A stretch of DNA of 45,962 bases from a virus: the IMG/VR virus record IMGVR_UViG_3300004369_000033, positions 1-45,962 of that record. One strand, 5' to 3'. Every line of letters starts with the position of its first letter. Within the stretch, counting starts at the first letter, position 1. The notes under the pieces are model-generated. The model was not told the DNA's origin. It did no database searches and saw only the letters and a list, made by a program, of their open reading frames with translations. Shown one piece after another: positions 1 through 30,726 of the stretch. The position numbers were made by a program, and so were the translations under genes.

Positions 1-2157
1 CATGAGATGTTCTGGCCTAACCCGAGAATCTTTCCTTGTCAACCAGGTCTTTTTAGCCGCGCCTTTATCTCTGCCACCGAAGAAAACGCCAGCATTAAAT
101 GCAGTTTGCGCCTCATGCTCTGCAATCGTCCGGCGCTTCTTGCCGAGCAGGTTGGCGAAGATTGCGATGAGAGCGGCGCGCAACATTGCCGACCGGTCAT
201 CATCGGCACCTAGGGCCATGGCAATAAGGAGTGCAGAGGCAACCTCGTCCTTGGTCGTCTCGTTCACTTTCTGAAGGCGCTGCATCTGGGCCTCCAAGTA
301 CTCTTTGTACTCTTCGGTTTCCTGGGTAGCAGCGTCCTTCTCTTCGGATGTACTGGACATCCCATCAATCGCTATTGCGTTGATGACCGGCTTTGCGTCC
401 TCGGCAAGTTGCTTGGACCAAACCTCGAGGTCGAAGATCGAGTCTACGGAAAGTTTGCCTTTTTCAAGGGCCTTCTTGGCTCGCGCGCCGGCAGCTTTTT
501 CTAGGACAACCCGCTGCTGACGTTCGAAAAATCGTTCGAGAGACCTATCCAAAATTTCAGTCCAGCGTTCGGTCGTCTGTTCGGCTTTGACGTCCCAGTC
601 GGACACGGCCATATTCTCAACTTTGACCTGAATACTTGAGTCGTGACCGCTCAACATTCCTGCCGGCTGCTGCATTGCTCCTGTCTGCACGTCTGCTGCA
701 GAAATTCCCGGAGCGATCATTCCGGAGGTGTCAGCCGTTGGGACTGCTCCCTGTCCTGCGCCAAGCGGCGGGGGCGGCTCCGAGTATCCGGTCATGTCAG
801 GCCCGACCATGCCAGTCATGTCAGGCGGAGCGGCCATCTGTTCCTGTCCGGGCATTGCGCCCTCCATGCCAGGAACGCCAGGTTGACGACCGGCCATGTC
901 GACTGGCTGCTGTGCAGCAGGCTCAAATGGCTTTTCAGTATTTGCGATTGGAGTTAGGTTCGGGTTGGACAGCAAGCTGTCGGCGAGTTCTGATTCAACC
1001 TTTTTCTTGCCAGTTCCGTCTCGGTATTCATTGGCTGAGATGAGTCCGTTTTGATACTCCTCGAGCTTGTACCGCTCTCGCTCTTGCTTGGCGATGATCA
1101 AGATTGGAACGTTGGCGACATCAAAATCAATGAAGTTCTGTGGGTCGAGGTCGTCCAATGCTCTTGCAATGAGCATCAGGTGAGGCATCATCGTTTCCAT
1201 CCAGAAGACGCGATTTTCCTCTGCAGCATTGCTGAAGGTTCGCCCGGATGCATTGCCGATGACAGATTCCGGTACACCGAAAGCGGCTAAAATCTCTTCT
1301 TTCGTGATTTGACGCATCTGGATGTATGCGGCATCACGAGGGCTGGAGGAAGTGTCGACGTAGTCGACACCATCGTCTGACGACAGAACGGAAACTGAAC
1401 CGGTCTTGTTTAGATTGCCCCTAAATCGATTGCGAAGCTCGTCCTTGTCGTCGTCATCGACCTCTCCACGGAGAACCAACAGTCCACCGGGCCGACCATC
1501 ATTGAGCAGGAAGTTTCTGTTGTAAACCTTTGCGAGGTTCTCAATTTCTATGGCGATTCCCGCAGACTCCATCGGGGTTAGCGAAAGGTATGGATCGAGC
1601 GGGTGTGGCTTTCTGATCCAGAGAACATCCTCTGGTTTCAGTACTTGCTTGAAGCCATTTGGCATTGTGATTTCGTAGCCAGAGACGAATTTCTTAGGGT
1701 CCGGTATCGGTGCCGTGTGCTGCGGAGGCAGCAGGTGAAGGGCGATTATTTCACCACTGCGTCCACGCACCTTCTCAATAAAAACACCACGAGAACTTAT
1801 GAGGAGCTGAGAAGAAAGCCGATATCTGAAAATAAAGGAGTTTTCGCCGTCGTTTGATACGGAGTTCAGAATCCTGAGCAGAGTGTTATTGCGTGGCCGG
1901 ATTATGCGGCCATCCTGCGAGTTGTCTTTGCGCAGGATCATGTTAAGTCGAGCTTGGTTGCCTGCTATAGCATCGATGCACCTGGACACCCAGGTGATTT
2001 TCTGCATTCCTTCTCGATAGGCCCGCTCGACATCCCAAGCATCGCGATAAGGCCGTCCAGCAGTTGCTGCGTTATAGGCGACGGGCGCGCCAGGACCAAT
2101 TGCGGCCTTCTGCTCTCCAATTTGGAGGGACTTGTTGTCGGTTTTGTTCCATCCCAT
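1..2157 (-). CDS. Portal protein with C-terminal MuF/gp7-like domain, 3' end cut by window edge
   Basis: The minus strand is open from ATG at 2157 to base 1 (719 codons, no stop). The first ~400 residues read as an HK97-type portal (Phage_portal family), the ring at the capsid vertex through which DNA is packaged; recognisable stretches are GVPESVIG, GRTFSNAAEENRVFW and an early TWVSRCIDAIAGNQA. A Pro/Met/Gly-rich linker follows (about residues 420-500), then a charged helical part. The last visible ~45 residues look like a MuF/SPP1 gp7 head-morphogenesis domain: AEHEAQTAFNAG near residue 678 and KDSRVRPEHL at 708-718. The gene starts two bases after the stop of the upstream small membrane gene, so the two are probably co-transcribed, leftward and divergent from terminase. 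All plus-strand ORFs here are shadows. Portal identity is firm; the MuF part is likely but incomplete. Confidence 0.88.
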   Translation of the reverse strand, partial: MGWNKTDNKSLQIGEQKAAIGPGAPVAYNAATAGRPYRDAWDVERAYREGMQKITWVSRCIDAIAGNQARLNMILRKDNSQDGRIIRPRNNTLLRILNSVSNDGENSFIFRYRLSSQLLISSRGVFIEKVRGRSGEIIALHLLPPQHTAPIPDPKKFVSGYEITMPNGFKQVLKPEDVLWIRKPHPLDPYLSLTPMESAGIAIEIENLAKVYNRNFLLNDGRPGGLLVLRGEVDDDDKDELRNRFRGNLNKTGSVSVLSSDDGVDYVDTSSSPRDAAYIQMRQITKEEILAAFGVPESVIGNASGRTFSNAAEENRVFWMETMMPHLMLIARALDDLDPQNFIDFDVANVPILIIAKQERERYKLEEYQNGLISANEYRDGTGKKKVESELADSLLSNPNLTPIANTEKPFEPAAQQPVDMAGRQPGVPGMEGAMPGQEQMAAPPDMTGMVGPDMTGYSEPPPPLGAGQGAVPTADTSGMIAPGISAADVQTGAMQQPAGMLSGHDSSIQVKVENMAVSDWDVKAEQTTERWTEILDRSLERFFERQQRVVLEKAAGARAKKALEKGKLSVDSIFDLEVWSKQLAEDAKPVINAIAIDGMSSTSEEKDAATQETEEYKEYLEAQMQRLQKVNETTKDEVASALLIAMALGADDDRSAMLRAALIAIFANLLGKKRRTIAEHEAQTAFNAGVFFGGRDKGAAKKTWLTRKDSRVRPEHLM

Positions 2158-2159
2158 AT

Positions 2160-2363
2160 TTATTCAAGCCCGAGCAGGAAGCCAAAGATGCCACAGCCGA
2201 CACCAGCAACTATAAATCCAGCAGGCGCGTAAATAGCTGCTGCTCCTGCTGCACTCAACAGTATAAAGCAAATCATGAATAGATTTGCCATTGCCGCCCT
2301 GTTCGTCAAGAATTTCTTTATTAACAAAGCTGTTACCCTAAAGGGCGTAAAGATCTTCTTCAT
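2160..2363 (-). CDS. Small two-helix membrane protein upstream of portal
   Basis: A 67-residue protein from ATG 2363; a GTG at 2372 would add three residues. It has a basic N-terminus (MKKIFTPFRV, IKKFLTNR) and two hydrophobic segments, about residues 27-47 (LFMICFILLSAAGAAAIY) and 50-66 (GFIVAGVGCGIFGFLLG). This predicts a small integral membrane protein with two helices. I do not recognise a family. It ends two bases before the portal ATG, so it shares the leftward transcript. Two-helix topology is compatible with a holin, but nothing else supports that role and no lysin is next to it. No clear Shine-Dalgarno sequence precedes either start. Confidence 0.6.
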   Translation of the reverse strand: MKKIFTPFRVTALLIKKFLTNRAAMANLFMICFILLSAAGAAAIYAPAGFIVAGVGCGIFGFLLGLE

Positions 2364-2430: not shown

Positions 2431-3735
2431 ATGACCGACTGGAACAAGGTTCTTCAGTACCTCGAACCTAAGCAACCGCTGTACACGCCAGAGGAAGCAT
2501 CCCTAACACAGAAAGCCTTCCTTCGAACCAACACTCTTGAGGCGCTATTCGGTGGAGCAGCCGGTGGAGGTAAGAGTTCCGCCTTGCTGATGGCCGCACT
2601 TCAATGGGTTGACACTCCTGGCTATTCGGCCATCCTGTTCCGTCGAACATTCGCCGACCTGTCGCTCCCAGGGGCGCTCATGGACCGCTTCAAGGACTGG
2701 ATTTCTCGCTACGACGACATTCACTGGAATAACAACTCCTATGTGGCTACCTTCCCTAGCGGAGCGAGAGTTTCATTCGGATACTTGAACAATACAAATG
2801 ATTATTTGCGATACAAGGGTTCTGAATTTCAATTCATCGGAATGGATGAAGTTACAGAAATCCGTGAATCTGACTATCGGTACCTTTTCTCCCGTTTGCG
2901 CCGCCCGGCTTCTGGCCCGCTAGCGCAGGTCCCACTCCGTATGAGGGCGGCATCAAACCCAGCGCCGAACTGGGTCAGGCAAAGATTTATCGTTGAAGGG
3001 CTTGACAAGGGGCGGGTTTTCGTACCGTCCAAGCTGACTGATAACCCGGGAATCGACGCTGCGTCTTACCGTCAGGCACTTTCTGCACTAGACCCTGTAG
3101 AGCGTAGGCGTTTGGAGGAGGGCGATTGGTGGTCTACGACCCTAGGCACATTCTTTGAACGAACTTCATTCGTGATTATCGACCCGCACGAAGTCCCTCA
3201 TTTGACCTCGGCGGCGCGCGTTGTCAGGTTCTGGGACCTTGCAGCAACCGAGCCTTCTGCGTCAAATCCGGACCCCGACTGGACTGTAGGAACCCTGGCC
3301 ATGATCGATCAGGGGATTATATATGTCCTGGATGTGCGCAAAATTCGTGGCAAAAGCGACAAGGTGGAGGCCCTGATTGCCCAAACCGCCCTCGAGGACG
3401 GTCCCCTGGTCAGCGTCAGAATGGAACAGGAACCCGGCTCATCTGGAAAGGCAATCGTCGACCAGTTTGCCAGGTACGTTTTGCCTGGTTATGACTTTAT
3501 GGGTATTCGAGCCACTGGCGACAAGCTCACCCGAGCCAGGCCATTTTCTGCCGCCGTAGCCAACGGGAACATCCGGGTCGTCCGGGGTTCCTGGCTAACT
3601 GACTGGCTGGATGAAATGTCCTCATTTCCCGAAGCCGCCAGCCACGATGACCAGGTTGACTCTGCGGTCGGTGCCTTCACCTTCCTCACCGGACTCGGGT
3701 TGCCACAGCGAGGAAGGGTCGCTATTATCGTCTAG
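2431..3735 (+). CDS. terL: Terminase large subunit (ATPase and nuclease of DNA packaging)
   Basis: A 434-residue packaging motor protein that pumps DNA through the portal and cuts concatemers. The N-terminal ATPase has a Walker A (GGAAGGGKS, residues 41-49) and Walker B (FIGMDE, acidic pair 139-140). The C-terminal RNase H-fold nuclease shows RFWDLA (Asp269), MEQEP (Glu332) and HDDQVDS (Asp406/407/410), the expected acidic metal-binding set. Length and motif order match the Terminase_6-type family. It is the first gene of the rightward transcript; no small terminase subunit was recognised next to it. In most tailed phages terL and portal are co-directional neighbours, whereas here they are divergent. 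Confidence 0.95.
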   Translation: MTDWNKVLQYLEPKQPLYTPEEASLTQKAFLRTNTLEALFGGAAGGGKSSALLMAALQWVDTPGYSAILFRRTFADLSLPGALMDRFKDWISRYDDIHWNNNSYVATFPSGARVSFGYLNNTNDYLRYKGSEFQFIGMDEVTEIRESDYRYLFSRLRRPASGPLAQVPLRMRAASNPAPNWVRQRFIVEGLDKGRVFVPSKLTDNPGIDAASYRQALSALDPVERRRLEEGDWWSTTLGTFFERTSFVIIDPHEVPHLTSAARVVRFWDLAATEPSASNPDPDWTVGTLAMIDQGIIYVLDVRKIRGKSDKVEALIAQTALEDGPLVSVRMEQEPGSSGKAIVDQFARYVLPGYDFMGIRATGDKLTRARPFSAAVANGNIRVVRGSWLTDWLDEMSSFPEAASHDDQVDSAVGAFTFLTGLGLPQRGRVAIIV

Positions 3736-5839: not shown

Positions 5840-6358
5840 ATGAACGATGATGCATTTTCACGACTCGTAGCCGAGGAAGTCAAGAATCGCGTGAGCAGAA
5901 ATCAGCGCGATTACTTGATGTTGCCCGATAACTGGGTGCGCTGGCAGCGTGCGCTATTGGCGCTTGTCCAGAACCTCGATTCGCAAATTGTTCGTCTGGA
6001 TTCCGATGAGTCCGCCGATAGAGACAGGTATGAATCTCTTGGTGAGGATGGAGTCAAACTGCTCGCCGAAGCACTATCTGATTACGAAATTAGACGGTCC
6101 AAGATCACGCGGTTTAAATTCCACGTAGATAAGCGGTTGGATGAGGTCAGCCGGATGATCGCGTTGGGAGATGAGTCCGCAGACGAGGACACCACGGCTC
6201 ATGCATTTCTGCGCAAGGCCGTGCAAAAACATAGGGAGCTTCTGGAAGAGTACGATCTCGAAGCAACCCCCATTGACCTTGCCCTCTGGGATTCGCTAGA
6301 AGGTAGATGGTCTTTTGAATCCGTAGAAATAGATGAGTTCCTATCTAGCGACGAATAA
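5840..6358 (+). CDS. Hypothetical helical protein
   Basis: A 172-residue protein from ATG 5840, three bases after the stop of the nuclease; ATG 5825 and TTG 5816 are in-frame alternatives without a better ribosome binding site. The sequence is charged and helix-rich, with likely coiled-coil character in the middle (LLAEALSDYEIRRSKITRF, KAVQKHRELLEEYDLEA). No membrane segment, cysteine cluster or catalytic motif is visible and I do not recognise a family. It sits in the tightly packed DNA-metabolism module between a nuclease and a glycosyltransferase, so a role in DNA transactions is possible but unproven. Confidence 0.72.
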   Translation: MNDDAFSRLVAEEVKNRVSRNQRDYLMLPDNWVRWQRALLALVQNLDSQIVRLDSDESADRDRYESLGEDGVKLLAEALSDYEIRRSKITRFKFHVDKRLDEVSRMIALGDESADEDTTAHAFLRKAVQKHRELLEEYDLEATPIDLALWDSLEGRWSFESVEIDEFLSSDE

Positions 6359-6362
6359 GCGA

Positions 6363-7448
6363 ATGGAAAAAATGTTCTTGCCGAAAATAGGGATTGCGTC
6401 AACTGATTGGTCACGCTCCCTGGTTGACAAGACGGGCCACCCAGAGCCTGGAGGCTCGGGATGGGTGCGCCTGCAGCAACTGCGCCCGCATTGGAAATTT
6501 CCATCCGTAACTGGAACGTTGATGTATCACGAAAAGTTTGGCTACGGAATTGCCGATTATTTCGGCAAGGTCCACTTTGACTGTGCGGTGATTGTTCTTC
6601 AGCGAATGATGTTCGAGGACATGATTCGTACATTAAAGCTCATAAAAAAGCGAACGGTCCGTCCCTACATCATTAATGACGTAGACGATTGGTACTGGGG
6701 TCTCGAGAAGACTAATGCTGCTTATGAAATAACTCGGCCCGAAAACAACCCGGAAGAAAATATCGACCACTACGCAGAAATTATCAAGCTTTCTGACATG
6801 GTTGTGGTTTCGACTCCTTTTCTTAAGGACAAGATGACTTCTTGGCTTGGTCACAAAAATGTAAAGATGATTTGCAACAGGGTGACCGTTACCGATTTCA
6901 ACGTTAGACGAGCTTCAACCAAACGTCCTATCGTGGGTTGGGTTGGATCAACGGCACACAGGTCCAACGACCTAGAGGAGCTGCGCGGCCTCTTCGATCT
7001 GATTCCTCACAAGCTGCATCACTCGGGCCATTTATCCTCGCACCCATTTTTTCACGATGCCGTCAACGTGGAGTCGCGACGAGTAACCCTTAGCCCGATG
7101 GAGCCTCCACGGCGTTATGCGCGCCAGTCGTTCTGCTTTGATATTGGTGTAGCGCCCCTGCGAGACACGCCTTTCAATCACGCCAAATCCTGGATCAAGA
7201 TGATTGAGTACGCCGCTGCTGGCGTGCCGATGATTGCTTCTGCTGCCCCAGAGTATGTCAGACTGAACAAAGAGTACGGAATTGGCCGAATTGCTCACAA
7301 TATTGATGAATGGGCTGAACACATAAAAGAATTAAGCGACTATCGCGTGCGTGTAGCAGAAGCCAAAAAGAACAGGGATCTTGTAAAGGAACTCGACGTT
7401 AAGCATATGGCCGATGAGTGGGCCGGAATATTTGAGTCATTGATGTGA
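6363..7448 (+). CDS. GT-B glycosyltransferase (GT4-like)
   Basis: A protein of about 361 residues from ATG 6363; ATG 6333 and ATG 6372 are alternatives and none has a strong ribosome binding site. The C-terminal Rossmann half carries the GT4-type nucleotide-sugar pattern: PIVGWVGSTAHRSNDLEEL, then DIGVAPLRDTPFNHAKSW and KMIEYAAAGVPMIAS, where the acidic/Lys and E-x-GxP residues contact the donor. The N-terminal half contains YIINDVDDWYWGLE and MVVVSTPFLKDKM, typical of the acceptor domain. It transfers a sugar from a nucleotide donor to an unknown acceptor. Embedding among nuclease and DNA-processing genes, rather than tail genes, makes DNA or a host target possible acceptors; virion glycosylation is the alternative. 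The family call is firm, the substrate unknown. Confidence 0.82.
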   Translation: MEKMFLPKIGIASTDWSRSLVDKTGHPEPGGSGWVRLQQLRPHWKFPSVTGTLMYHEKFGYGIADYFGKVHFDCAVIVLQRMMFEDMIRTLKLIKKRTVRPYIINDVDDWYWGLEKTNAAYEITRPENNPEENIDHYAEIIKLSDMVVVSTPFLKDKMTSWLGHKNVKMICNRVTVTDFNVRRASTKRPIVGWVGSTAHRSNDLEELRGLFDLIPHKLHHSGHLSSHPFFHDAVNVESRRVTLSPMEPPRRYARQSFCFDIGVAPLRDTPFNHAKSWIKMIEYAAAGVPMIASAAPEYVRLNKEYGIGRIAHNIDEWAEHIKELSDYRVRVAEAKKNRDLVKELDVKHMADEWAGIFESLM

Positions 7449-8293: not shown

Positions 8294-8641
8294 GTGCAGT
8301 ACCGACGTAACGATCCGATTTCGCAAGTAGAAATCGAAAACGAACTATTGCGATTAATGTCAATGCTGGAAGAAGAGACTGAGACTTTCGAATCGCTGGC
8401 TGAAGACGCAGCAAAGAAAGACGCCCTGTACAAAGCGAACTGGGCAAAAGAGTATTTAAGTGCTAAAGGATCAATTAAAGAACGAGAAGCATGGGCCGAT
8501 TACAAGCTTTCTGAAGAGTCGTATGACTTCAAGATTTCCGAAGCCCTGGTCCGGTCCAAGCGGGAAAAGCTGACGTCGCTACGAACTTCAATCGACGCTC
8601 TTAGAACGCTCAACGCAAATGTCAGATCGCAGGTTCAGTGA
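8294..8641 (+). CDS. Hypothetical coiled-coil protein
   Basis: A 115-residue protein starting at GTG 8294, chosen because GGGAGG at 8284-8289 is well placed. It is almost entirely charged helix (IENELLRLMSMLEEETETF, KLTSLRTSIDALRTLNANV), so a coiled coil is likely. Its stop overlaps the ATG of the ParB-like gene (TGATG), suggesting translational coupling. Small helical proteins in this position occur in many phage DNA modules, but I do not recognise a named family and assign no function. Confidence 0.7.
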   Translation: MQYRRNDPISQVEIENELLRLMSMLEEETETFESLAEDAAKKDALYKANWAKEYLSAKGSIKEREAWADYKLSEESYDFKISEALVRSKREKLTSLRTSIDALRTLNANVRSQVQ

Positions 8642-9429
8642 TGAATGAGAAAATACACGAAAATCTACACAGTCTTCTGGTGGACATTGACACTCTTGTG
8701 CCTCTTCCCGGCAATCCGCGGGTTGGCAATGTTGAGGCAATCGTTGCGTCTTACTCAGAATTTGGTCAAGTTAAGCCAATCGTTGCCCGACCAAACGGAG
8801 ACGGTACAAGTACCGTCATCGCCGGCAATCACCAGCTTGAGGCAGCCAAACGCCTTGGGTGGGACAAAATTGCTGTCGTGATGATGGACGCAGACGACAA
8901 GCGCGCCTTGGCTTTTGCAATGGCAGACAACCGCACCAACGAGCTTGGCTACACGGAGCCAGAGCTTTTGAACGACATCATTGTTCAAATTAATGAAGAC
9001 TATTCGGTGCTATTAGACGATCTTGGCTGGGACGACTTTGAGCTTGCTTCACTAAATGAGTCGGCAATCAAAAACGAACGGTCGACTCTGTCCAGCGGCT
9101 ACGTGCAGCCCGTCATTTCGGCTATTACTGATATCGCACAGGCGATTAGTGATGCCGGCATCAGTTTTGAATCGTCCGAAGACGGTGACTCCAAAATTGT
9201 TGCACCAACTTCGGCAGATCAAGAGGCGATGGCGACCACTGGCAGCACCGCCATCAATGCGGCTGGATCTTCTAGGGTTGCCATTCAGTACACCATGGTC
9301 TTCGAAGATTCCGAACAACAGCGAAAGTGGTATGCATTTTTGCGCTGGCTCAAGAGTGAACCTAGCCTTGATGGCGAAACGACAGCAGAACGTATTTTGA
9401 ACTTTATTGAGGCACATGCGGACTTCTAA
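8641..9429 (+). CDS. ParB/Srx-fold nuclease-like protein (first of two)
   Basis: A 262-residue protein from ATG 8641. The first ~110 residues are a ParB/Sulfiredoxin-type domain: LVPLPGNPRVGNVEAIVASY, then GQVKPIVA and the hallmark IAGNHQLEAAKRLGW, followed by VVMMDADDKRALAFAMADNRTNE. In ParB relatives this fold binds nucleotide or acts as a nuclease. The rest includes an Ala/Ser/Thr-rich linker and a C-terminal helical segment (EQQRKWYAFLRWLKSEP). It belongs to a cassette with an HTH protein, a PAPS-reductase-like PP-loop protein and a second ParB-like protein, an arrangement recalling the E. coli IbrA/IbrB pair. No parA or chromosome-partition context exists, so partitioning is unlikely. 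Confidence 0.85.
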   Translation: MNEKIHENLHSLLVDIDTLVPLPGNPRVGNVEAIVASYSEFGQVKPIVARPNGDGTSTVIAGNHQLEAAKRLGWDKIAVVMMDADDKRALAFAMADNRTNELGYTEPELLNDIIVQINEDYSVLLDDLGWDDFELASLNESAIKNERSTLSSGYVQPVISAITDIAQAISDAGISFESSEDGDSKIVAPTSADQEAMATTGSTAINAAGSSRVAIQYTMVFEDSEQQRKWYAFLRWLKSEPSLDGETTAERILNFIEAHADF

Positions 9430-9952
9430 CAAACCACACGGAACTCACGCTCGGTACTCCAGGGGCTGCCGTTGTCAGAATTGTAGGGTAGCTCATCGCA
9501 ATTATGAACGCGATGCCGCTCGACGGCGTCGGCGGGTCAAGTACGGCATTGAGGTGCCAACCAGCATGTATGTGCCTGTTCATGAGGCCCAAGAACATGT
9601 CAAGTTTCTCTCCACGCGAGGGATAGGACTTGGCGCTATTGCGAAGCAGGTTGGAGTTCCTCGCTCGACAATTCAACACATCAAGCGCGGCACTCATGAG
9701 CGCACCAAAATCGATCTTGCTGAAAAAATTCTTGCCGTTCCCGCAATACCTCGGGAGCCGATGTCCTACACGAGTGCTGAGCCTATTAAGAAGTTGCTGT
9801 TCGAATTGGAGAAAAAGGGCATTAGCAGCAAAGAGGTGGGTCGAATCCTTGGTTGCCGGTATGGCGATTTACGGATTAAGGAGAGCATGCGAGTATGGCG
9901 GTTCAAGCAAGTCGAGGCAGTGTGTAAAGAATTGTTGAGGTTAAACCCATGA
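9416..9952 (+). CDS. Cys-rich helix-turn-helix DNA-binding protein
   Basis: A 178-residue basic protein from ATG 9416 (GAGG lies just upstream), overlapping the ParB-like gene by 14 bases. The N-terminus has the pattern HGT..RYSRGCRCQNC (Cys18, 20, 23) followed by a run of arginines, a form common in actinobacterial and actinophage DNA-binding proteins. A helix-turn-helix follows (GLGAIAKQVGVPRSTIQHIKRG), and a second possible HTH lies near KGISSKEVGRILGC. It may act as transcriptional regulator or as the DNA-targeting part of the ParB/PP-loop cassette. Its stop overlaps the start of the PP-loop gene. Confidence 0.8.
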   Translation: MRTSNKPHGTHARYSRGCRCQNCRVAHRNYERDAARRRRRVKYGIEVPTSMYVPVHEAQEHVKFLSTRGIGLGAIAKQVGVPRSTIQHIKRGTHERTKIDLAEKILAVPAIPREPMSYTSAEPIKKLLFELEKKGISSKEVGRILGCRYGDLRIKESMRVWRFKQVEAVCKELLRLNP

Positions 9953-11115
9953 CCAGACAGCGGATGTTCTTGGATATCGATTGCGTGGAGGCTGCTCGTC
10001 AGCGCATGCGTCACGTTTATGACACTTTCGACACGGTGTGCGTGCAGTTCTCTGGTGGAAAAGATTCAACGGCCGCCCTGTACCTGGCCAAAGAGATCCA
10101 CGAAGAGCGTGGCCTGGGTCCAGTCAAGGTTATTTTTCGTGATGAAGAGATGGTTAGCCCGCTAGTCATTGATTTCATTGACAAGGTTCGTCAGTACGAC
10201 TGGGTCGATATGGAGTGGTACTGCCTGCCGATGAGTCAGGAAGTCTGGGTTCTCGGTCGACGAGAGTTTTGCTTGCTGTGGTCAAAGCAACGCGAAAAAG
10301 ATGGTCGCTTGGTCAGGAAGATGCCGCCATTTGCCATCAGGGCAGAGCATTTCGGCCTTGACCCCAACCAAGTAATACCGGAGTCGGTGGACTATTACAC
10401 GATGCAAGGAAAGAAGGGCAAGACGGCTTTTGTGACCGGCGTTAGAGCAAACGAATCAATGATTCGTTATAGGTCTTGCGTTCAAAAACTGCACGAAAAT
10501 TACATCGTGCATCCGTACAAACTTGCTAAGTCGGTTCCACTCAAGTTTGCAAAAGTGATCTATGACTGGACGACAGATGACGTCTTGAAGTTCATCACTG
10601 AAGAACACGGCGCTGAGTACTGCGAGTTCTATGATCTCGCCGCAATAACCGGCTCCAACACCCGAGTCGGCATCCCACTCCACGCCGTAGCGATTCGACG
10701 CATTGGAGATGTGGTCAAGACCGAGCCAGAGTTCTATGACGAGCTTGTTCGGTGTTTTCCGCATATTGACGCTCAGCGCCGTTGGTGGCCAGAGTTCGAT
10801 ATCGAGAAACTCATCAAGCGTTATTCCGACGGCGGCTGGGATGGCGTTCGCAAGTGCATCGATGATAACTTCATTACTCCGGGTAAGCGGATGCGCGCAC
10901 AAGCCTTTTCCGCTGAATTTAGAAAGAAGCATGCTCGAGACCCCAAGTCTTATCCGATTCACTGGTTGGTCAGGAATTTGCTTCTAAACGAAATCACACC
11001 ATCGACGGCGGTAAGTCCAATCGGTCCAGGGACGAAGGCTTACACGCTTCAGATGAAAGAAGCACAGCAGCAAGCGGAGTTGAACAGCCTTGATATTCAG
11101 GATGATGAGGTCTAG
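9949..11115 (+). CDS. PAPS-reductase-family PP-loop protein (IbrA/DndC-like)
   Basis: A 388-residue protein with the PP-loop SGGKDST at residues 35-41, the ATP-pyrophosphatase signature shared by PAPS reductases, DndC and IbrA. Other recognisable parts are KVIFRDEEMVSP after the loop, FVTGVRANESMIRYR near the middle (the helix after GxRxxES contacts substrate in this superfamily), and YDWTTDDVLKFI. The long C-terminal half (WWPEFDIEKLIKRYSDGGW, SYPIHWLVRNLL) is unlike plain CysH and fits IbrA-type proteins. It adenylates or transfers sulfur to an unknown substrate. Flanking ParB-like genes on both sides and tight overlaps suggest one functional unit, possibly nucleic-acid modification. Sulfate assimilation is unlikely since no cys genes accompany it. 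Confidence 0.85.
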   Translation: MTRQRMFLDIDCVEAARQRMRHVYDTFDTVCVQFSGGKDSTAALYLAKEIHEERGLGPVKVIFRDEEMVSPLVIDFIDKVRQYDWVDMEWYCLPMSQEVWVLGRREFCLLWSKQREKDGRLVRKMPPFAIRAEHFGLDPNQVIPESVDYYTMQGKKGKTAFVTGVRANESMIRYRSCVQKLHENYIVHPYKLAKSVPLKFAKVIYDWTTDDVLKFITEEHGAEYCEFYDLAAITGSNTRVGIPLHAVAIRRIGDVVKTEPEFYDELVRCFPHIDAQRRWWPEFDIEKLIKRYSDGGWDGVRKCIDDNFITPGKRMRAQAFSAEFRKKHARDPKSYPIHWLVRNLLLNEITPSTAVSPIGPGTKAYTLQMKEAQQQAELNSLDIQDDEV

Positions 11116-11122
11116 GAGCGCC

Positions 11123-11671
11123 ATGAAAATCACAAATTTTGAACACGCTGATTTAAACCCTGCCGAGTGGAGGGCGACGTATGTATTGCGCCCGGATATG
11201 GCGGTATTAGCTCAGTCTCTCCATACCTATGGATGGATTGCGCCAATCGTCATTCGCCAGCAGACCAAGGAAATCATTGACGGTTACCATCGGTGGCTGG
11301 CCCTGCGAACTGATCCAAAGCTGATGAAAAAGCTGGGTCATGAGATCCCCTGCATTCAAGTCAAGTGTGATTTGCCTCAGGCAATGATCATGCACCTCCA
11401 GATCAATCGTGGTCGTGGTGCGACATTGGGGGCCGGCACTTCCAAAATTGTCCAGAGCGTTCTCAAGTCTCGACGCTACGACAAAGCGGCGCTCCGTTCC
11501 ATGCTTGGAATGTCAACTGATGAAATTGATTTGATGATCGATTCGACCCTTATCAAGCAACGGAAAGTCCCCACCCATAGCTATTCAAAGGCTTGGGTTC
11601 CGATTGAGGCTCCAGCAAAAATTGCTGATGAAGCCCTGGTAATCGAGCGCCCACCCAACGCTGATCGTTGA
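11123..11671 (+). CDS. ParB-like protein (second copy, IbrB-like)
   Basis: A 182-residue protein from ATG 11123, with AGGAG seven bases upstream; the longer in-frame start at 11090 overlaps the PP-loop gene and is less likely. The ParB/Srx fold is seen in LNPAEWRATYVLRPDMAVLAQSL, GWIAPIVIR and the signature IIDGYHRWLALR, followed by IPCIQVKCDL and MIMHLQINRGRG. It is shorter and clearly diverged from the ParB-like protein at 8641. It directly follows the PAPS-reductase-like gene, the same gene pairing as E. coli ibrA/ibrB. Function unknown; nuclease or nucleotide-transfer activity is possible for this fold. Confidence 0.8.
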   Translation: MKITNFEHADLNPAEWRATYVLRPDMAVLAQSLHTYGWIAPIVIRQQTKEIIDGYHRWLALRTDPKLMKKLGHEIPCIQVKCDLPQAMIMHLQINRGRGATLGAGTSKIVQSVLKSRRYDKAALRSMLGMSTDEIDLMIDSTLIKQRKVPTHSYSKAWVPIEAPAKIADEALVIERPPNADR

Positions 11672-28992: not shown

Positions 28993-29589
28993 ATGTCCGA
29001 AAAAGAACCCCTAATTGCTAAGGCGCTATTTGACGACAAGACCCATAGCGGCATAATTGACTTTGTCAATAAGCGGACTCCGCTAATGTCATTGCAGGTC
29101 GATGAAACCACCTTTATTAGAAAATATAGCCACAATACTCCATTTTTTGTTTCCATCCATCGCCATCTTTCAGATTTTGCATCCGAGCAATTTGGCGAAC
29201 CTTTAAAGCCGTCTTATGTTTTTCTATCAATGTATGAAGACGGCGGAATATGCCCGCTTCACATCGATCGGCCACAGTGCTATCGCACCATTGACTACCT
29301 AATCACGCAGGACGACCAAGAACCGTGGCCAATTTTAATTGGCGAGCCAATGAGCAACGAAGATCGAGAAAAGCTTGTAGAAAGCAACGCCTGCCATCCC
29401 AAAGAAGATTCAGAAATTGCCGAACGCATTGCTGCGGAAACTTGGCACGAGGTTCTCCTGATGCCCAATGATGCCGTCCTTTACTCGGGAACTCACTCAT
29501 GGCACTACCGCCCGAAGCCTATAAAGGGCAAGGCAACGCTTGTATTTTTCCACTTTGTCCCGGAGGCATTCGATGGTCCGCTCGACTAA
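28993..29589 (+). CDS. 2OG-Fe(II) oxygenase 1
   Basis: A 198-residue protein of the cupin-type 2-oxoglutarate/Fe(II) dioxygenase superfamily. The iron ligands appear as CPLHIDRP (His90, Asp92) and SGTHSWHYRPK (His168 or His171, with Arg173 for 2OG binding), followed by the strand ATLVFFHFV. VLLMPNDAVLYSG is the strand before the distal His. It would hydroxylate an unknown substrate using O2 and 2-oxoglutarate. First of three neighbouring, mutually diverged oxygenase genes; overlaps the second by 17 bases. Confidence 0.8.
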   Translation: MSEKEPLIAKALFDDKTHSGIIDFVNKRTPLMSLQVDETTFIRKYSHNTPFFVSIHRHLSDFASEQFGEPLKPSYVFLSMYEDGGICPLHIDRPQCYRTIDYLITQDDQEPWPILIGEPMSNEDREKLVESNACHPKEDSEIAERIAAETWHEVLLMPNDAVLYSGTHSWHYRPKPIKGKATLVFFHFVPEAFDGPLD

Positions 29590-30211
29590 GCCCGTCAATC
29601 TCACTGTCGATCTACCGAAACTTGGCAGGGCTGACGCACCCGGTGGAGGCTGGCATTTCAAGCAGGACTTCCCGCACGAATGGTGCTGGTTCATCGACGC
29701 CTTCACCCCAGCCGAACTGGACGCCATCATCCGCATCGGCGAACAGATTGAGATGGACAAGGGTGTAACTGGTGGCAGCAATTCACCCAAGGTCCGTGAC
29801 TCCTATGTGTCGTGGCTCTTTCCGAACGAAGTGACAGGCTGGGTGTACGAACGCATGGCCGGTGTCGTCACTGCCATGAACGAACAGTTCTACGGATTCG
29901 ACCTGGACGGCTTCTTCCAAGGATTCCAGTTTACCAAGTACACCGCACCAGGCCAGCACTACACCTGGCACGTCGATCGTGGCGGTGGACATGGTGTCCG
30001 CAAACTCTCGGTTTCGTTGCTGTTGTCCGACCCTGACGACTATGAGGGTGGAGACTTGCAGTTGAAGTACGGCGAAGATGAGCAGACGGTTGAACGGAAG
30101 AGGGGAATGATGACGCTGTTCCCGTCCTGGTCACTTCACAGGGTCACGCCTGTTACGAAGGGAACTCGCTACTCGCTGGTGGCGTGGGTTAGTGGCCCGC
30201 CGTTCAAGTGA
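29573..30211 (+). CDS. 2OG-Fe(II) oxygenase 2, prolyl 4-hydroxylase-like
   Basis: A 212-residue protein from ATG 29573, which has CGGAGG six bases upstream; longer starts overlap the previous gene without support. It matches the P4Hc type: FIDAFTPAELDAIIRIGE, SYVSWLFPNE, FTKYTAPGQHYTWHVDRG (His133, Asp135), SVSLLLSDPDDYEGGDLQL and LFPSWSLHRVTPVTKGTRYS (His189, Arg199), all ligands present. Enzymes of this type hydroxylate proline or related residues in proteins. The DNA is visibly more GC-rich than the two flanking oxygenase genes, suggesting separate acquisition. Candidate substrates are the Gly-X-Pro stretches of the adhesin at 40983. Confidence 0.88.
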   Translation: MVRSTKPVNLTVDLPKLGRADAPGGGWHFKQDFPHEWCWFIDAFTPAELDAIIRIGEQIEMDKGVTGGSNSPKVRDSYVSWLFPNEVTGWVYERMAGVVTAMNEQFYGFDLDGFFQGFQFTKYTAPGQHYTWHVDRGGGHGVRKLSVSLLLSDPDDYEGGDLQLKYGEDEQTVERKRGMMTLFPSWSLHRVTPVTKGTRYSLVAWVSGPPFK

Positions 30212-30726
30212 TCTGCATGAAGTCTAGTATTAAGGTTATAGACAATGCCCTCAGTTGCGAGGAGGCCGATCGCCTTGAGTCGGTAATCTGCTCGCAGAAA
30301 TTCCCTTGGTACTTTAGCGATAAGATAAATGGCGACGACTATCCGTCAAATAAGGAAACGGGCGACTTTCAATTTACTCATCCCATCTTTAGCTATGACT
30401 CGCCCTTAACTGACCTCGCGCCACTTTTCATGCCTCTTGTGCATATGTTGCACCCAATACAGGTGATCCGCATGAAGGCAAATCTTAATACCCAACACCC
30501 AAGGAAATTGGTATATGGGTTTCATCGCGATCTACCGGTCGAACATAACGAAAAAATCGCTATTTTCTACCCAACGACAGCCGATGGCCCCACCGTGTTT
30601 GAGGACGGGTCATCTGTCGAGGCAGTCAAGAATAGGCTAGTATTATTTCCATCTTCGGTACTACACTCTGGAACAACGCCCGTTACGACCAAGTGTCGCA
30701 TTGTGGTCAACATGATCTACCAGTAG
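30208..30726 (+). CDS. 2OG-Fe(II) oxygenase 3
   Basis: A 172-residue protein from GTG 30208, overlapping the previous stop (GTGA); ATG 30217 is an alternative. Iron and 2OG ligands are seen in YGFHRDLP (His106, Asp108) and SSVLHSGTTPVTTKCRIVVNM (His153, Arg164), in the expected order and spacing. The start, IKVIDNALSCEEADRLE, resembles many phage oxygenases. Mutational or horizontal divergence from its two neighbours is strong, so the three are not recent duplicates. Substrate unknown. Confidence 0.8.
   Translation: MICMKSSIKVIDNALSCEEADRLESVICSQKFPWYFSDKINGDDYPSNKETGDFQFTHPIFSYDSPLTDLAPLFMPLVHMLHPIQVIRMKANLNTQHPRKLVYGFHRDLPVEHNEKIAIFYPTTADGPTVFEDGSSVEAVKNRLVLFPSSVLHSGTTPVTTKCRIVVNMIYQ

Follow-up and report, generated by a model that had tools for sequence, protein, structure and literature searches.

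A conserved phage module of a mislabelled, IbrA-like PP-loop enzyme and two ParB-type proteins, with a possible role in DNA modification

The IMG/VR virus record IMGVR_UViG_3300004369_000033 is a single contig of 45,962 bases (the whole stretch analyzed here, referred to as the window) and encodes a PP-loop protein, PAPSR, flanked by two different proteins of the ParB/Srx fold, ParB1 and ParB2. Comparison with phage and bacterial relatives showed that this ParB1-PAPSR-ParB2 module is real, conserved, widespread, and mislabelled. On sequence grounds PAPSR is an IbrA-like PP-loop ATP-pyrophosphatase, wrongly named a 3'-phosphoadenosine-5'-phosphosulfate (PAPS) reductase, and ParB2 is the counterpart of IbrB. 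We give about an even chance to the reading that the core is a multi-subunit module for modification of DNA, or of another nucleic acid, by ATP-dependent adenylation or ligation, with variable capping enzymes.

An earlier note on this DNA, made from the sequence alone, had described a cassette of four genes, with a helix-turn-helix (HTH) gene between ParB1 and PAPSR and the last gene following after 7 bases. The coordinates and overlaps were confirmed on the sequence and by family matches (Table 1): the ParB1 and HTH reading frames overlap, the HTH and PAPSR genes share four bases (ATGA), and the gap between PAPSR and ParB2 is exactly 7 bases. The four genes are not chance open reading frames (ORFs), because a second IMG/VR contig (L002), 95% identical across the whole of PAPSR, keeps all four in the same order. 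Only part of the cassette is constant across relatives, however; ParB1, PAPSR, and ParB2 form the conserved core, while the HTH gene comes and goes.

Table 1. The module and other annotated genes of the window
Feature	Coordinates	Strand	Assignment and matches
Portal protein	1-2163	-	PF04860 3e-50
Terminase large subunit	2431..3735	+	phrog_979 1.2e-106; ~5 kb upstream of the module
Glycosyltransferase	6333..7448	+	GT-B type; phrog_7162 6.2e-33
Small helical protein	8294..8641	+	phrog_1389 3.4e-11
ParB1	8638 (GTG) or 8641 (ATG)..9429	+	ParB/Srx-fold protein with extra C-terminal domain
Zn-binding/HTH protein	9416 (ATG; TTG 9407 possible)..9952	+	Accessory; HTH families weak, phrog_1590
PAPSR	9949 (ATG)..11115 (TAG 11113-11115)	+	Putative IbrA-like N-type PP-loop ATP-pyrophosphatase; PF01507, phrog_2302
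ParB2	11123 (ATG)..11671	+	IbrB-like ParB/Srx protein; phrog_2159
Tail sheath	starts 13840		Marks a contractile tail
Tape measure protein	starts 16569		

PAPSR matches PF01507 (PAPS_reduct; 1.1e-10) and phrog_2302 (3.6e-78), and the PP-loop SGGKDST reported in the earlier note is present. We aligned 34 PAPSR-type sequences, including bacterial IbrA-like proteins (alignment A5). The invariant residues are R19, S35GGKDS40, D65, E67, W111, P126, G164-R166-E169-S170-R173, D206-W207-D211, Y224, Y228, R239, and P260, which together make up a set of 23 positions, from R19 to P260, shared with the bacterial IbrA-like rows. No cysteine is invariant in the 34 sequences, and the catalytic cysteine motif of the PAPS reductase C terminus, ECG[IL]H, is absent from PAPSR, which also scores far below the cut-offs of the NCBIfam equivalogs. 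C225, in a YCxxYD stretch, was considered as an invariant catalytic cysteine and rejected; it is invariant in the nearer set only and is replaced by N or P in distant rows. Since PAPSR has the PP-loop and the substrate motifs, but neither an invariant cysteine nor the ECGLH motif, it is neither a PAPS reductase nor a DndC. A PP-loop ATP-pyrophosphatase lacking redox and sulfur-relay cysteines is expected to adenylate an acceptor, from which AMP is then displaced, following the logic of TilS and of asparagine and FAD synthetases.

The AlphaFold model of PAPSR (pLDDT, the predicted local distance difference test score, 87) gave fold matches to CysH (the top match), FMN adenylyltransferase/FAD synthase, TilS, and TtuA-type PP-loop enzymes, with a Foldseek E value of 1.7e-6 against 6vpu. 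Query TM-scores of the matches are low (~0.3-0.36) because about 130 C-terminal residues form an unmatched helical extension. PAPSR is thus like CysH in its PP-loop fold, by both PF01507 and Foldseek, and unlike it at the C-terminal catalytic cysteine. The best solved sequence match, a weak one, is an FAD synthase that has the YCxxYD stretch in common.

ParB1 matches ParB_N (PF02195, 1.3e-8) and phrog_723 (2e-39), and its solved relatives are Noc/ParB proteins (1.3e-17). It also matches phrog_498, annotated as DNA methyltransferase (2.7e-21), and residues 19 to 147 match the PADLOC profile MTase_II (7e-13). By these matches, ParB1 is related to the ParB domain that is fused to phage DNA methyltransferases; the homology lies in its N-terminal part, whereas the methyltransferase domain itself is absent and the enzyme of the module, PAPSR, is a separate protein. 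In the window's lineage AGNHQ replaces the GxxR (catalytic-Arg) motif (alignment A2), and an extra conserved C-terminal domain carries the pattern QYTLVFDDxxQQxxWYxFxRWLK..TTAERLxxFI. ParB2 matches phrog_2159 (9.5e-31) and scores 20.0 bits against PF02195, below the cut-off of 26.3. Its invariant residues, D53, G54, R57, N95, R96, and G99 (alignment A6), spell DGxHR and NRxxG, followed by a C-terminal YSxAW motif, and its model (pLDDT 83) matches Noc/ParB and sulfiredoxin folds. The record of Rhizobium phage P11VFA annotates ParB2 as IbrB, and the bacterial counterpart adjoins IbrA. Unlike partition ParBs, neither protein has the CTP-binding GERR-type motif (AGNHQ in ParB1, DGxHR in ParB2), and family scans found no ParA partner in the cassette.

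Neighborhoods were compared by profiles across IMG/VR, GenBank phage, and bacterial loci, with 71 representative PAPSR loci, mutually less than 90% identical. Within 3 kb of PAPSR, ParB2 was found on the downstream side in 55 of 70 testable loci and ParB1 on the upstream side in 35 of 64; most loci that break the pattern are bacterial IbrAB pairs, which lack ParB1, or belong to one phage lineage with a lone PAPSR. The triple is found in Arthrobacter phages Laroye (gp5-6-7) and Kovu, Mycobacterium phages Heathcliff (gp1,4,5) and prophi79-1 (gp93,95,97), Bacillus phage 031MP004 (gp79,80,84), Rhizobium phage P11VFA (063,062,061), and many metagenomic lineages of IMG/VR, with module identities of 28 to 50% across carriers. 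The two ParB-like partners pointed out in the earlier note are real and conserved, not a peculiarity of this locus. The genes annotated one by one in GenBank as ParB, PAPS reductase, and ParB in Laroye (gp5-7) and Heathcliff (gp1,4,5) are this module, and gp95 of prophi79-1, annotated as a nucleotidyltransferase, is PAPSR (37% identical). Among 50,697 phage records, PAPSR occurs in 210 and ParB2 in 221, with nearly the same host distribution (Flavobacterium 90/90, Mycobacterium 55/55, Streptococcus 21/21, and Bacillus 6/6 for PAPSR/ParB2). A scan of a genome collection with the phage-type PAPSR gave mostly bacterial IbrAB and few prophage-like matches. We found no published description of the triple as a system, a weak negative since subscription papers and preprints were largely outside the search. 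In Microbacterium phage Rasputia (MT639646, 1-4166), three ParB genes stand in a row before an HTH gene and a terminase, with no PAPSR alongside.

In one lineage the three genes are dispersed. A 138-kb record (G004) has ParB2 at 18 kb, ParB1 at 66 kb, and PAPSR at ~86 kb, a maximal spread of ~68 kb; a 106-kb record (G005) is scattered in a similar way, and in a 129-kb record (G018) a long distance separates ParB1 from PAPSR-ParB2. With scores of 305-343 bits for ParB1 and 194-201 bits for ParB2, the distant genes are true orthologues. Among 17 records searched, most of them carriers of the module known beforehand, with G004 and G005 as the independent cases, both ParB profiles matched in all 12 PAPSR-bearing records of at least 60 kb; the records without one or both ParBs were contigs of 32 to 56 kb. 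Scattering of the genes among relatives, which the earlier note had named as evidence against a cassette, is thus seen in one lineage, but all three orthologues are kept in the long contigs, and their retention despite dispersal argues for one joint function.

The resemblance to IbrA/IbrB proposed in the earlier note was borne out. The alignment of PAPSR with IbrA-like proteins of enterobacteria and flavobacteria extends across the whole catalytic region, and the SGGKDS, DxE, GxRxxESxxR, and DW..D motifs and R239 are shared; PAPSR and ParB2 are homologues of IbrA and IbrB, which are adjacent and in the same order in bacterial loci, and the IbrB-type DGxHR ParB follows directly downstream. The differences are that identity to IbrA is only ~19-22% and that the phage module adds ParB1, often a methyltransferase or GNAT, and linkage to the terminase. 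ParB1 is kept by the phages and is absent beside bacterial IbrAB, so the composition is not that of a two-gene system. Given the homology, the phage module may be described as a three-subunit system of the IbrAB type, and E. coli IbrAB would be its two-gene relative. The DNA-binding member that the earlier note had counted is accessory.

The HTH protein matches HTH families below cut-off and phrog_1590 (8.9e-17); it carries the motif HGTHxRYxxGCRCxxCRxAHRxY ahead of the HTH, with H8, H11, C18, C20, C23, and H27 invariant (alignment A4). Its gene was found at 11 of 87 loci by BLAST and as 17 ORFs by hidden Markov model, and it lies between ParB1 and PAPSR in a minority of relatives, all of the window's lineage. 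This minority occurrence rules it out as a core member; it is an optional accessory. The small phrog_1389 gene, present at 22 of 87 loci, usually stands just upstream of ParB1 in the window's lineage, and its link to the module is uncertain.

The genes for the small and large terminase subunits (TerS/TerL) directly follow the module in many unrelated phages. TerL is on the same strand, at most ~2.1 kb past the end of PAPSR, in 12 representative loci, and these TerLs fall into several groups that are related weakly or not at all by BLAST. The gap from ParB2 to the terminase often holds one further enzyme. This slot is filled in Arthrobacter, Bacillus, and prophi79-1 phages by a protein of methyltransferase fold (phrog_11826), which occurs in 17 of the 50,697 phage records, all 17 of which carry the module. 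Outside its S-adenosylmethionine-binding motif I (DLGASTGLLT), the residues RR, E, GR, and E are conserved (alignment A7). A GNAT protein fills the slot in Kovu and several IMG/VR lineages; the only relative of the module-adjacent IMG/VR GNAT in phage records is the one in Kovu, which adjoins the module (1/1). Group-transfer enzymes dedicated to the module and co-localized with it are therefore found, though not in the window's own slot. In an Azoarcus metagenome-assembled genome (L091), another GNAT separates the IbrA-like gene from the IbrB-like one.

A glycosyltransferase is a candidate partner in the window's lineage. It was found within 4 kb of the end of PAPSR in 7 of the 71 representative loci, none of these 7 having a methyltransferase or GNAT, and the three enzyme types never occur together within 4 kb. 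Among long contigs, 4 of 5 from the window's lineage carry it, against none of 13 others. In several relatives its gene is found a few hundred bases past ParB2, close to the slot occupied elsewhere by the methyltransferase or GNAT, and in the window it is upstream of the module. With only 4 of 18 records, all of that lineage, it was rejected as a universal partner, as was a PF12224 amidoligase for the role of universal fourth partner (4 of 18 records). Two carriers (NC_041947 gp97-99; MN176225 gp40 and gp44) encode an amidoligase together with a gamma-glutamyl cyclotransferase, and Laroye additionally encodes a glutamine amidotransferase. Small Cys/His-rich HNH-like proteins (CxxC..HxEDY..CxxCH) occur near the module in L141, L143, L145, L153, and L158, between module and terminase in several of these loci; those scanned gave no Pfam match. 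A Spirochaetia locus (L095, 2995-9702) has an IbrA/IbrB-like pair near a terminase-like ORF, an ORF bearing SDPPW, and a protein resembling phosphatidylserine decarboxylase (PF02666, 5.7e-36); such an enzyme would suit DNA adducts derived from amino acids.

The earlier note had offered nucleic-acid modification, anti-defense, or host regulation as the function. The first is the best supported, because of the ParB1 of ParB-methyltransferase type, the dedicated methyltransferase and GNAT partners, and the terminase linkage; together with the cysteine-less PP-loop enzyme and the type of ParB2, these point to modification of DNA before packaging. We propose that ParB1, PAPSR, and ParB2 would act as one unit, most likely on the phage's own DNA around the time of packaging. 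PAPSR would adenylate an acceptor, either a base carbonyl or carboxyl or a small-molecule donor, with release of pyrophosphate, and a nucleophile would attack the adenylate in the manner of PP-loop enzymes of the TilS or asparagine synthetase type. ParB2, whose DGxHR motif probably binds nucleoside triphosphate (NTP), and ParB1 would load PAPSR onto DNA, or power and gate its access, and a lineage-specific partner (the methyltransferase-fold protein or the GNAT, perhaps the glycosyltransferase in the window's lineage) would cap or extend the new group. What we infer from this combination of genes is the DNA target, the chemistry, the part played by each ParB, and the order of capping.

A precedent is the cytosine carboxymethyl system, in which CmoX, a methyltransferase, and CmoY, an asparagine-synthetase-type ATP ligase, hypermodify phage DNA and have ParBc neighbors (PMC12783734). 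The likeness to CmoX/CmoY/CmoA lies in a phage PP-loop-type ATP ligase, an S-adenosylmethionine-dependent enzyme, and a ParBc neighbor; the difference is that CmoY is an asparagine synthetase homologue, from a PP-loop family other than that of PAPSR (PF01507), and CmoX a C5-methyltransferase. Neither of these two enzymes was found here: PAPSR does not match an asparagine synthetase, and the scanned neighbors of the cassette include no cytosine methyltransferase. It is possible, if doubtful, that the module represents a new class of DNA hypermodification machinery, in which a cysteine-less IbrA-type PP-loop enzyme and two ParB/Srx proteins form an adenylation-dependent adduct on phage DNA that swappable partners methylate, acetylate, or glycosylate, with bacterial IbrAB as a domesticated two-gene form that uses the same DNA mark to act on prophage genes.

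Several observations weigh against DNA modification. No modified base was found reported for any carrier, and the window's slot holds neither a methyltransferase nor a GNAT. The phrog_11826 family lacks a DPPY-type or other recognizable DNA-methyltransferase catalytic motif (A7), and among solved proteins its best relatives methylate small molecules. Neither the scattered lineage nor bacterial IbrAB shows the terminase linkage, and PP-loop adenylation could just as well serve metabolite or RNA targets. Finally, E. coli IbrAB, the one relative that has been studied, is known from record annotations as a prophage-gene co-activator.

This last point leads to the main rival, which we hold to be unlikely: a transcriptional regulator of the IbrAB kind, acting on late genes or in host takeover, in which the ParBs would bind DNA and PAPSR would make or sense a nucleotide ligand, with no covalent change to the DNA. 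IbrA and IbrB, carried by E. coli and by Flavobacterium and Streptococcus phages, bear annotations as prophage-gene co-activators, the activity that defines IbrAB being activation of prophage eib genes. The homology of PAPSR-ParB2 to IbrA-IbrB, the accessory HTH gene, and the CTP switches among the best ParB2 fold matches (Noc, KorB) would all fit a regulator, but the dedicated methyltransferase and GNAT partners and the kinship of ParB1 with ParB-methyltransferase fusions would be left unexplained, and IbrAB itself could work by DNA modification. Counter-defense chemistry on a metabolite is improbable. PAPSR would adenylate or ligate a small molecule, such as an NAD- or nucleotide-derived signal, the ParB/Srx proteins would serve as NTPases, and the GNAT or methyltransferase would be further modifiers; this is consistent with FAD synthase/FMN adenylyltransferase among the best fold matches and the common YCxxYD, with the partner's resemblance to small-molecule methyltransferases, and with the NTPases known among ParB/Srx proteins. 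ParB1 groups, however, with ParBs linked to DNA methyltransferases, the terminase-side position is typical of late genes that act on DNA, and no substrate-binding partner for a signaling system was seen. We regard as quite improbable a factor for packaging or end processing, in which the ParBs would nick or bind at cos or pac and be regulated by PAPSR. The position upstream of TerS/TerL, RuvC and HNH neighbors, and the nicking activity reported for a ParB fold (PMC5512222) speak for it; against it, the module in G004 and G005 is scattered and far from the terminase, an ATP-pyrophosphatase has no obvious packaging role, and most phages package without the module.

Two explanations make PAPSR an enzyme of sulfur chemistry. 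Insertion of sulfur into DNA, as a Dnd/Ssp-like phosphorothioate or a thio-base with PAPSR as sulfurtransferase, is highly improbable. The Dnd, Ssp, and BREX-4 systems (DndC, SspD, BrxP) do combine a PP-loop enzyme with a ParB-like protein, DndB likewise being called ParB-like, and the PP-loop stretch weakly matches DndC/BrxP (1.3e-6 to 2e-5, residues 13-83 only). DndC requires an Fe-S cluster and a cysteine dyad (PMC10853773), whereas PAPSR lacks the Fe-S and sulfur-transfer cysteines, C225 being N or P elsewhere; it scores 23.2 bits against the DndC model TIGR03183 (cut-off 290.4), with a PADLOC match to residues 13-80 only. No DndD, DndE, desulfurase, or Ssp partner was seen nearby, and the ParB motif is DGxHR versus DGQHR. 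Membership in Dnd/Ssp was rejected on the missing cysteines and partial matches. Auxiliary sulfate assimilation, with PAPSR as a true PAPS reductase that supplies sulfide, is scarcely credible and was rejected on the missing ECG[IL]H cysteine; the PF01507 score above cut-off and the top structural match to CysH favor it, while the equivalog scores and the obligate ParB partners do not. In agreement with the earlier note, no sulfate-assimilation gene was found among the window proteins scanned, a scan that did not extend to some small ORFs.

Elsewhere in the window, Erf-like and exonuclease genes are encoded, and the portal gene points the other way from the terminase and the remainder of the window, which is an unusual order for head genes. 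A 2-oxoglutarate-Fe(II) oxygenase (29540-30211; PF13640, 3.2e-18) lies among the tail genes, next to an ORF with a weak DUF6445 match (30208-30726); the pair (29540-30726) perhaps serves virion-protein or receptor-glycan chemistry. From 33 to 45 kb there are many paralogous tail-fiber proteins with Mtd_N-type N termini (PF18454) and shared modules, likely a region of host-range variation.

Phage "PAPS reductase/cysH" genes are widely reported as auxiliary genes of sulfur metabolism, a label that is very probably wrong for the PAPSR family. If the module does modify DNA, phages of M. smegmatis, Arthrobacter, and B. subtilis that can be cultured would offer a chemistry of modification that is new to phage biology. 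It would also explain part of the many orphan phage ParB genes and would give the IbrAB co-activators of E. coli, long unexplained, a mechanism that can be tested.

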